Shown in pieces: positions 54,694-60,173 of a DNA stretch of 64,000 bases. The notes under the pieces are model-generated. The model ran no database searches, was not told where the DNA came from, and saw only the letters and a program-made list of their open reading frames with translations. The stretch's first letter is position 1; every line of letters starts with the position of its first letter. Source of the stretch: Simplicispira metamorpha (GTDB lineage Bacteria; Pseudomonadota; Gammaproteobacteria; Burkholderiales; Burkholderiaceae_C); assembly GCF_004341365.1 (NCBI RefSeq), contig NZ_SLXH01000017.1, positions 1-64,000 of the forward strand, given 5' to 3'. The position numbers were made by a program, and so were the translations under genes.

Positions 54694-57761
<3,068 letters not shown>

Positions 57762-57810: not shown

Positions 57811-57975
57811 CGTGCACTAACACGACTGACTACCCAAATTTTGCAATTAGATTCAGCAAAAGTTATTTATCAGATTTTTATAGCTAAAAACTATATTTAT
57901 AAAAATACAATAGTTTTTTTTAATTTGCAAATATTGAAATTCTTATAAATAATCATTTTATCTATTTTATTTATA

Positions 57976-58176
57976 ATGACTATTATGCACGCAACTACTG
58001 AAAATCCAGTAAGCATCGAAAAATCGTACACGCTTAAGTTTCTCAAATCGAATCCTGCTGTGGAAACAGATGAAGCACACTGGACTTGGACTCCTGTAAA
58101 GCACCGTGGTTCTTTAGATATTAAGACTGCTACATTTAGTGGAAAAAATCAGGCTGACGATTATACTAACGAATGA
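57976..58176 (+). CDS. Putative graspetide (ATP-grasp RiPP) precursor peptide
   Basis: 66 aa. The N-terminal ~45 residues look like a leader (SYTLKFLKSNP may be the recognition helix); the C-terminus has ring donors T51, T53 and S55 followed by acids D61, D62 and E66 (TATFSGKNQADDYTNE), the donor-then-acid layout of side-chain ester or amide rings made by ATP-grasp enzymes. It sits directly upstream of such an enzyme. Start 57976 overlaps a TATAAT box (57972-57977); the in-frame ATG at 57985 is an alternative, and neither has a Shine-Dalgarno. The 165 bases upstream are strongly AT-rich with no other clear feature. The whole segment differs from the GC-rich flanks, so it is likely transferred. 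The exact ring pattern is inference. Confidence 0.7.
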   Translation: MTIMHATTENPVSIEKSYTLKFLKSNPAVETDEAHWTWTPVKHRGSLDIKTATFSGKNQADDYTNE

Positions 58177-58202
58177 AAAAAGCGCCGTAAGGCGCTTTTT
58201 TA
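58175..58202 (+). terminator. Terminator/attenuator between graspetide precursor and maturase
   Basis: AGCGCC-GTAA-GGCGCT stem-loop (58181-58196) flanked by AAAAAA before and TTTTT after. It starts at the precursor stop codon and ends 14 bases before the maturase start. Partial read-through would give much more precursor than enzyme. Confidence 0.88.
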
Positions 58203-58215
58203 AATCCTTAATTAT

Positions 58216-59241
58216 ATGATTGCAATTTTTGGTAGTCTCGAAGATCCTCATGCACAAGAAATAGAGCAAAAGATTCGTCTTTTGGGTTACCCATGTGCCA
58301 TCATCTCTACAGCGAGAAAAGATTTAAAAAATACCAGTTTTGTTTTTTTACTTAATGATGAAAAATCAAGCATAGAAATTACTCAGGGAAATATTACATT
58401 AAATACTAACAGTATCCATTCCGCGTGGGTGTGTCAGCCAATTTTTTCACTTTTTTCGACAACAGAAGAAAAATTCAGTCAAGAATTAAAGTTTTGGTTT
58501 TTCACATGGCGAGAATCGCTAAATGGGATTTATGCGCTCCTTGAGCAGCGCGGTATTTTGGTAAATGGATCTATTTCTGAGGCCGTTGCTAATCAAAATA
58601 AAATTAGATACATTGGCAATATTTCTAAAAATATTCTCAAGCAACCTAAATCCATTATTAGCAACGATCGGGAGTCGCTATTAAATTTTTTTCGAAATTC
58701 GGATTCCTGTGTGGTTTTAAAAACACTGCATCAAATGCAATTAAGTGTTGATGGCGAACCAACTATGCTTCTAGCATCAATAGTGCAAGAAGACGATTTT
58801 CTTGATTTCCAACAAAAAAATGAGTGTCCAATATTTCTTCAGGAGTATGTCGAAAAAATCTATGATGTGCGTCTAACAATTGTTGGTGATCATATTTTTT
58901 CTTGCAAAATTGATGCAACCCATTCCGATGCAGGCCGTATAGACTGGAGGGCTTATGATTTGGCGAATACTCCACATTCTCAATATGATCTTCCTTCTGC
59001 TATTGCTGAAGAAATAATTGGCATTTGCAGAAAAATGAAACTTGATTATGCGACCATAGATCTTTGTGTAGATCAAGGTGGGAATTATTATCTTCTTGAT
59101 ATCAATCCATTTGGTAGATATTTATGGATTGAAGATGCTATTGGGGCGCCTATTACTGATGCTATAGCTAAATTTTTGATAAAAAAGCAAAACTCAACTA
59201 ATACGATCCACCGGCCATTCTGCTTGGCTGGCCTGCAATAA
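58216..59241 (+). CDS. ATP-grasp graspetide synthetase (MvdC/MvdD-like peptide maturase)
   Basis: 341 aa. An N-terminal pre-ATP-grasp domain (MIAIFGSLEDPHAQEIEQKI, WFFTWRESLNGIYALL) precedes an ATP-grasp core with ATP-binding K169 (VVLKT), the substrate motif YDVRLTIVGDHIFSCKID (D217, R219), DWRAYDLANTPHSQYDLP, and metal ligands D282, D295 and N297 (LLDINPFGRY). This matches RimK-like enzymes that join Thr/Ser or Lys to Asp/Glu side chains in microviridin-type peptides. No transporter, protease or acetyltransferase gene accompanies it. AT-rich codon use indicates transfer. Its 3' end overlaps the convergent yhaV gene by 48 bases. Confidence 0.88.
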   Translation: MIAIFGSLEDPHAQEIEQKIRLLGYPCAIISTARKDLKNTSFVFLLNDEKSSIEITQGNITLNTNSIHSAWVCQPIFSLFSTTEEKFSQELKFWFFTWRESLNGIYALLEQRGILVNGSISEAVANQNKIRYIGNISKNILKQPKSIISNDRESLLNFFRNSDSCVVLKTLHQMQLSVDGEPTMLLASIVQEDDFLDFQQKNECPIFLQEYVEKIYDVRLTIVGDHIFSCKIDATHSDAGRIDWRAYDLANTPHSQYDLPSAIAEEIIGICRKMKLDYATIDLCVDQGGNYYLLDINPFGRYLWIEDAIGAPITDAIAKFLIKKQNSTNTIHRPFCLAGLQ

Positions 59242-59661
59242 ATCTTCCCAGCCATTGGGCGGATGTCCGCGCTGGAGCATCTTGCAAAACACCGCATAAG
59301 GATCGGTGCTGCTGCCTGATGCGCGCAAACTGTGCTCATCGTTGATCCAAGCAAAAATGATGATTTTGCTTTTGGAGTCGAAACGGAAAAACAGGCGGAA
59401 GCGCCGTCCGATTTTGGCCCGGCGCCAGTGCCTGAACACTGGCCCCATGGTGTTGCCTTGGCGGAACTCGTCGCGCCCGGGGTTGCTGGGTATGGTCTCC
59501 AGCATCAACTGCGCTAGCGCGTTGAACAGTTTGACGTTGGCGTTGGTGCCATACCCATCCGGGTCTTGGGCTTTGGCCCGCGCGGTAGCGGTGGCCAGTT
59601 TTTGTAGCTGCGCTATCAAGCAGTCATGAAACAGCAGCGTCCAGCCGTGGCGCTGCATCAC
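59194..59661 (-). CDS. yhaV: YhaV-family toxin (RelE-like ribonuclease)
   Basis: 155 aa, usual length. MQRHGWTLLFHDCLIAQLQK, DEFRQGNTMGPVFRHWRRAK and GRRFRLFFRFDSKSKIIIFAWINDE are the YhaV landmarks; the toxin is a RelE-superfamily mRNA interferase that cleaves mRNA. The start overlaps the antitoxin stop by 4 bases. Its C-terminal 16 codons overlap the end of the graspetide synthetase gene on the opposite strand. Confidence 0.9.
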   Translation of the reverse strand: MMQRHGWTLLFHDCLIAQLQKLATATARAKAQDPDGYGTNANVKLFNALAQLMLETIPSNPGRDEFRQGNTMGPVFRHWRRAKIGRRFRLFFRFDSKSKIIIFAWINDEHSLRASGSSTDPYAVFCKMLQRGHPPNGWEDLLQASQAEWPVDRIS

Positions 59662-59975
59662 AAATCCACATCGCCAGCGATGTCGGCATCCAAATCCACG
59701 GATTGGGCTGCAGCCGCTACCAGCGCCCTGGCCAAATCATCGGGCAGGCTGCTGATGTGGAGGCCCGATTGAATGTCTTGTTCCAGCATCTGCAAAAAGC
59801 CAGCAATGGCGGGGTCTTCATGAGCTGTTGGCGCTCGACTCACAACGACCTTGTCACCCAGAAAATCAAACGCCACCTTGCCTCCCACGTCTACCCCCAA
59901 GGCTTGGCGGATAGCCTTGGGCAAAGTGATTTGCCCCTTGGCGGTGATGGCTGCAACTTCGTGGATAGCGTTCAT
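59658..59975 (-). CDS. prlF: PrlF-family antitoxin (AbrB/SpoVT fold)
   Basis: 105 aa. The N-terminal swapped-hairpin AbrB domain is AAITAKGQITLPKAIRQALGVD; the C-terminal half (about 55-105, acidic) would bind YhaV. It represses its own operon in known systems. It runs first in the operon, with the inverted repeat at 60004-60021 just upstream as the probable operator. Confidence 0.9.
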   Translation of the reverse strand: MNAIHEVAAITAKGQITLPKAIRQALGVDVGGKVAFDFLGDKVVVSRAPTAHEDPAIAGFLQMLEQDIQSGLHISSLPDDLARALVAAAAQSVDLDADIAGDVDL

Positions 59976-60003
59976 AGCTAACTCCTGAGAGGAAATTTCT
60001 ATT

Positions 60004-60021
60004 GTAAGGATTTTTCCTTAC
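60004..60021. promoter_or_regulatory. Inverted-repeat operator candidate of prlF-yhaV
   Basis: GTAAGGA-TTTT-TCCTTAC: perfect 7-bp arms, 29 bases upstream of prlF. A third half-site, GTAAGGAT, occurs at 60143-60150 on the side facing yjcH-actP. Confidence 0.55.
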
Positions 60022-60173
60022 TTTTGGCGAAGACGGATGTGGTGGCCAAGTCACCGGTCTGCCGCTCTGCTCGGGCTTTTTTGTGGGCGCTTGGGAGCCT
60101 CGTGAAAATGCGTTTCCATACGCCAGAAGCTGGTATTTTTCTGTAAGGATTTAACAGGATTGACTTCCTAGAA

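Follow-up and report, generated by a model that had tools for sequence, protein, structure and literature searches.

The stretch analysed here, 64,000 nucleotides of Simplicispira metamorpha (contig NZ_SLXH01000017.1, positions 1 to 64,000; hereafter the window), very probably carries a self-contained, horizontally acquired graspetide cassette, in which a gene for a short precursor peptide is followed by a gene for an ATP-grasp enzyme that would make rings in that peptide. A relative of the pair was found in a Hydrogenophaga metagenome-assembled genome. As a first-pass annotation of the same DNA had reported, the two open reading frames (ORFs) lie in an AT-rich island of an otherwise GC-rich window, with a guanine plus cytosine (GC) content of 33.8% by count, against 66.0% for the remaining window:

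57811 to 59190, no strand: AT-rich island with both graspetide genes.
57976 to 58176, + strand: graspetide precursor gene, 66 amino acids (ORF listing; kept in the Hydrogenophaga relative), with an alternative start at 57985 (Met4) that would give 63 amino acids.
58216 to 59241, + strand: graspetide synthetase gene (ATP-grasp), 341 amino acids (profiles, fold), whose homology to the relative stops near residue 324 (about 59187).

Sequence comparison, conserved residues and the predicted fold all identify the enzyme as a graspetide synthetase, of the ATP-grasp class that comprises MvdC, MvdD, TgmB and PsnB. NCBIfam models of graspetide maturases match it, the best at 4.7e-40, and an AlphaFold2 model built from a 20-sequence alignment (pLDDT, the predicted local distance difference test, 85.7; a model from just two sequences, with pLDDT 36.7, was discarded) has macrocyclases of ribosomally synthesized and post-translationally modified peptides (RiPPs) as its top Foldseek matches, with RimK as the next group. 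The Chryseobacterium RiPP ligase CdnC (7mgv) takes rank 1 and the plesiocin synthetase PsnB (7drm) appears from rank 17 on, both with a fold like that of the window enzyme at only about 17-22% identity. All nine residues invariant across 37 aligned enzymes are retained. The motif DVRLTIVGD, which the annotation had singled out together with metal-ligand motifs, occupies residues 217-225, and the ligands are predicted at D282, D295 and N297:

58864 to 58872, + strand: D217-V-R219, the acidic-x-Arg motif, with R219 in 37 of 37 aligned enzymes.
59059 to 59061, + strand: D282, predicted metal ligand, in 37 of 37 aligned enzymes, a role assigned by analogy with ATP-grasp enzymes in general.
59098 to 59106, + strand: D295-I-N297, predicted metal ligands (alignment).

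The graspetide identity proposed by the annotation is supported by these profiles, catalytic residues and fold, and also by the fact that the one close homologue detected has kept the precursor. This homologue (Hydrogenophaga locus L004; 67% identity in the enzyme) emerged from a scan of 84,980 species genomes with six exact 8-residue patterns, which is sensitive to near relatives only. Directly upstream of its enzyme lies a 63-residue peptide that is 70% identical to the window precursor and shares its last 16 residues, TATFSGKNQADDYTNE, without exception, with silent differences in 10 of the 16 codons. Between the two loci the encoded amino acid is changed in 19 of 47 leader codons and in 104 of 324 enzyme codons, and silent sites have reached or almost reached saturation. 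If the core changed as fast as the enzyme, the probability that 16 residues stay the same would be 0.002. Homologues lacking the upstream peptide, which the annotation held would speak against its reading, were looked for, and this sole close homologue carries the peptide with every proposed donor and acceptor in place. A linked precursor with a kept leader, Ser/Thr/Lys donors and Asp/Glu acceptors is thus seen in one relative. Further close relatives were absent from IMG/VR, and plasmid and phage collections gave no match to the precursor; enzyme matches in plasmids and phages are distant (below 60% identity, about 23-34% among the matches listed). Besides the own genome, where the pair is single copy, enzyme matches in the overlapping samples of family, order, class, phylum and relatives are at most 36% identical where identity is given. 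Hydrogenophaga was not mentioned among the matches listed in a literature search.

The residues that the annotation had numbered in the 66-residue precursor (T51, T53, S55, D61, D62 and E66) were correctly placed, and the peptide may be divided as follows:

58027 to 58047, + strand: leader segment YTLKFLK, residues 18-24, proposed by analogy as a counterpart of the microviridin PFFARFL helix.
58081 to 58095, + strand: WTWTP, a WxWxP motif common to the Hydrogenophaga peptide and an ORF beside a more distant sister enzyme (alignment).
58126 to 58173, + strand: predicted core TATFSGKNQADDYTNE, with candidate donors T51, T53, S55, K57 and T64 and candidate acceptors D61, D62 and E66; 16 of 16 residues as in the relative.

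The precursor may in fact have 63 residues, since the related peptide begins at the residue aligned with Met4. Three acidic core residues would allow three rings at most. This core, the WxWxP leader motif and a Glu-to-Asp change at a predicted metal ligand are the distinctive features of the locus.

Microviridins have the core motif TxKYPSD, and plesiocin-type precursors have TTxxxxEE repeats. The window precursor has no such repeats and, on inspection, neither that core nor the PFFARFL leader of the microviridin type (MdnA with MdnC/MdnB; AMdnB), a leader motif that PMC8939145 assigns to microviridins (group 1). Two synthetases are present in a microviridin-type locus with a TYKYPSD core (L056) and also in its neighbour in the tree (L027), whereas the window has one. 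On the other hand, several related synthetases adjoin precursors that carry between two and five LLELxTKTxxxxExDD-type cores (L007, L025, L026, L060, L063, L071, L073, with variants in L022/L067 and in L069, these being Leptospira phage-type contigs). With these tandem cores the window shares a precursor just beside a related synthetase, T-x-T followed by D-D, and an aromatic segment before the core; it differs in its single core, the lack of an internal Glu, an extra residue before DD and the C-terminal Glu, and five aligned tandem-core enzymes are 21-25% identical to its own. Descent from the tandem cores looks attractive by eye, but a profile of 17 of the 20 core units (the three irregular units of L063 excluded) fails to recognise the window core. 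Because the profile recognises neither this core nor that of the relative, ring topology cannot be transferred from the tandem cores. Pairwise alignments to the precursors of L021 (two), L022, L024, L026, L056, L061 and L062 were equalled by 286-901 of 1000 shuffles. The pattern TxTx[ST]x(3-6)DD, which was chosen after seeing the data, is found beside several graspetide synthetases, and in control loci L028-L055 its one occurrence among 606 small ORFs is the precursor studied here, L028 being the window.

The annotation's view of an unfamiliar core therefore stands as far as the microviridin motifs and the tandem-core profile go, but its novelty is less than had been claimed, as surveys list many patterns and two-gene groups. 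PMC8939145 describes 174 families of graspetide precursors in many patterns, of which 115 were then new, and PMC13097080, a RODEO survey of 2026, describes groups with only a precursor and a synthetase; groups 27, 28 and 35 resemble the window in this gene content. A two-gene graspetide locus with an unfamiliar core is thus expected biology, and the locus adds a small new lineage to a class that already has many members. PMC13097080 also places an isoaspartyl-methyltransferase-like gene almost always next to graspimiditide (group 13) loci; between the gene labelled gapA and yhaV, the neighbours of the pair, there is no sizeable ORF besides the pair that could be such a gene.

We infer the following course of events, from the attenuation of the transcript and the reaction on the peptide to the number and pairing of rings, leader cleavage and function. 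A single transcript would give the precursor (leader about 1-50, core about 51-66) and the ATP-grasp macrocyclase, and many transcripts would stop at a hairpin between the two genes, past the precursor, which would provide an excess of substrate:

58176 to 58201, + strand: terminator-like hairpin and T-run in the gap between the two genes, proposed as an attenuator (11-bp stem, z -3.35).

An attenuator that keeps the precursor in excess would be the natural reading of this hairpin; the relative has an intergenic hairpin with a T-run of similar score (z -3.35), and a simple terminator scan listed the relative's hairpin and not the window's. For leader binding the enzyme would use the YTLKFLK region, perhaps aided by WxWxP, and with ATP it would phosphorylate D61, D62 and E66 on their side chains; attack by T51, T53 and S55 (possibly K57 or T64) would then produce up to three omega-ester (or amide) rings, with 18 Da lost per ring. 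Finally, an unlinked protease would cut off the leader, or the leader would stay attached. The absence of a protease or exporter, noted by the annotation, was borne out: the ORF listing shows no third sizeable ORF between gapA and yhaV as a candidate for either, and the 98.6%-complete genome has no C39 peptidase at E 0.001. Since the precursor has no double-Gly cleavage site either, maturation by unlinked proteins or retention of the leader would follow. PMC13097080 describes microviridins and plesiocin as serine protease inhibitors; by analogy, a protease-resistant inhibitor or a competition peptide is the most likely role of the product, yet this is a guess.

The acquisition of the cassette is suggested by its surroundings in both genomes, and the neighbours given by the annotation, gapA with a terminator and a toxin-antitoxin pair, were recovered as a gapA-like gene with a terminator-like hairpin upstream of the island and as Pfam matches to YhaV and PrlF. 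The gapA label comes from the gene's sequence, no family search having been made on it.

57747 to 57759, + strand: 3' end of gapA, first copy of the 13-nt repeat GTGGTGGCCAAGT (repeat search).
57819 to 60138, no strand: segment missing from the gapA-DUF485 gap, about 72 bp long, of one same-genus genome (flank alignments).
59194 to 59661, - strand: YhaV-type toxin, overlapping the enzyme gene tail to tail at the 3' ends (PF11663, 7.3e-55).
59658 to 59975, - strand: PrlF-type antitoxin (PF15937, 5e-12).
60039 to 60051, + strand: second copy of GTGGTGGCCAAGT, beyond the toxin-antitoxin pair, a possible insertion scar (repeat search).

The same-genus genome G009 keeps the window order of gapA, terminator, about 72 bp, DUF485 and ActP; in place of the 72 bp, the window contains about 2.3 kb with the graspetide and toxin-antitoxin pairs. 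The enzyme had no match at E 1e-8 in 25 same-genus genomes, and gapA-bearing loci taken from genomes of the genus (L029-L052, two of which end less than 200 bp from gapA) matched neither enzyme, precursor, YhaV nor PrlF. This absence and the empty syntenic site in one genome support the AT-rich insertion of the annotation and argue for an acquired cassette. In the relative, the pair has 44-46% GC against 61% for the whole locus and is preceded by a C-terminal remnant of a Tn5-family transposase (L004 5180-5551; PF02281, 7.6e-46). Because the two genes stand at different sites in two genomes, with foreign composition in both, the pair is, judged by placement and composition, a mobile cassette. 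The 13-nt repeat has two exact copies in the 64 kb, where 0.01 are expected, and its likeness continues with a 3-nt gap; this copy of the gapA 3' end beyond both gene pairs suggests an insertion scar. The island holds no integrase-sized ORF besides the described genes. Sequence 3' of gapA is variable among the same-genus loci. Two side observations concern these sites. On the other side of the Hydrogenophaga pair (L004 7101-7265) there is a possible scrap of a DDE transposase (PF13751, E 0.034, below cut-off). In another genome of the genus (L086; G004:C31:269500-276200), about 2.9 kb of cargo stands behind a full gapA. The cargo includes an addiction-module antidote gene (PF21716, 2.2e-41) and an AT-rich gene without assigned family, and after it the 3' part of gapA recurs as an incomplete copy of 610 bp. 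In this genus, the 3' end of gapA is a possible hotspot for insertions.

Several points weigh against a working graspetide cassette. Conservation of the pair rests on a single comparison, as one close relative is known, and 10 of the 25 same-genus genomes are less than 90% complete. In the family search suggested by the annotation, the enzyme matches the four graspetide NCBIfam models far under their curated cut-offs (TIGR04187, 137.7 bits of 350; TIGR04185, 136.3 of 425; TIGR04184, 124.8 of 475; TIGR04192, 78.7 of 230), and the precursor matched nothing in family profile searches. The window core scores -0.2 bits on the tandem-core profile, equalled or bettered by 616 of 2000 shuffles and by 20 of 490 other window ORFs, and the relative's core scores 1.4 bits, a value reached by 101 of 2000 shuffles. 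At position 295, 35 of the 37 enzymes have Glu, and Asp occurs in the window enzyme and its relative only. The locus ORFs, the precursor sequence and the C39 search of the genome gave no cleavage site, protease or exporter for the precursor. Before neither window start is a ribosome-binding site visible by eye (AAGGAA precedes the precursor in the relative), and promoter-like sites are at chance level (7 found, 5.5 expected, standard deviation 2.2). Moreover, the C-terminal tail of the enzyme, beyond the end of homology near residue 324, is not conserved. Expression of the pair in the Simplicispira host is therefore uncertain.

These signals would also fit a true graspetide locus by descent whose product is no longer made in its host, a decaying or silent island, and to this may be added that the enzyme tail runs into yhaV and that the pair is single copy and was not found in the genus sample. 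The ORFs of synthetase and toxin overlap tail to tail by 48 bases, the last enzyme codons being antisense to the 3' end of yhaV; from this overlap and the stop of homology, the last residues probably arose by chance at the junction. However, both frames are open, the nine invariant residues are retained, and amino-acid change between window and relative is far rarer than silent change, with which a very recent loss is still compatible; we consider such decay unlikely, but the most serious of the alternatives. Far less probable is an intracellular role for the peptide, for instance as part of one addiction or defence module that includes the YhaV toxin. The toxin does lie adjacent, inside the same inserted segment, but the 13-kb stretch of the Hydrogenophaga locus has no match to YhaV or PrlF (tblastn, E 0.1), none of the four proteins (precursor, synthetase, YhaV, PrlF) matched a PADLOC defence model, and the AT-rich composition ends at the start of yhaV in the sliding GC profile, so that the graspetide and toxin pairs look joined from different sources. 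PHROGs gave no match either. Slightly weaker still is the idea of a RimK-like ligase that adds amino acids to the C-terminal Glu of the peptide and makes no side-chain rings. In its favour, RimK-family models match weakly (4.2e-09; TIGR00768, 36.2 bits against a cut-off of 143.4), RimK comes second in structure and the peptide ends in Glu. Against it, graspetide models and structures far outscore RimK, the entire 16-residue core is fixed, not its C-terminus alone, and enzymes of the same tree adjoin multi-core or microviridin-type precursors.

If the graspetide cassette is taken as the preferred reading, the features of most value are the pattern of its core, the Asp in place of a metal-ligand Glu, and a gene content limited to the pair. 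Some graspetides are protease inhibitors, and the enzymes of the class are under study for peptide stapling; one core and one enzyme, with 16 fixed residues, make an easy test system for an unfamiliar ring pattern, and the enzyme suits the question of whether Asp replaces the usual Glu at the metal site. It is possible, although we would lean somewhat against it, that the window and Hydrogenophaga loci, with a distant sister (L058), represent a lineage with this Glu-to-Asp change, an undescribed three-ring pattern from TxTxSxxxxxDDxxxE and a bare two-gene cassette spread between hosts, whose peptide would act without dedicated protease or exporter.

In the tree of the 37 synthetases (midpoint root, for drawing), the window and Hydrogenophaga enzymes pair with support 100/100, and L058, from a genome of the same phylum with 28-30% enzyme identity, is their sister at 98/95. 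Its neighbouring ORF (L058 2452-2658) stands directly after, not before, the synthetase, behind AGGAGG, and has FLE and WxWxP segments that resemble the FLK and WxWxP of the window precursor, with a different core. None of 5000 shuffles was as good against the Hydrogenophaga precursor and 85 of 5000 were against that of the window, where 4 other ORFs among 703 background ORFs (this one included) outscored it; judged by this likeness, it is probably a precursor with another core.

Two-gene graspetide cassettes also occur on phage and virus-collection contigs. Those with tandem TKTxxxxExDD-like cores are L022/L067, L069, L071 and L073, in which the precursor overlaps or just precedes the synthetase; 4 of the 19 IMG/VR loci fetched have such cassettes (L067, L069, L071, L073), and Leptospira phage vB_LalZ_80412-LE1 carries a tandem-core one. 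Within the window's own family, a locus (L019 798-1052) has a two-core microviridin-like precursor, with PFFARFLE and then two LKYPSDGDD, beside two synthetases.
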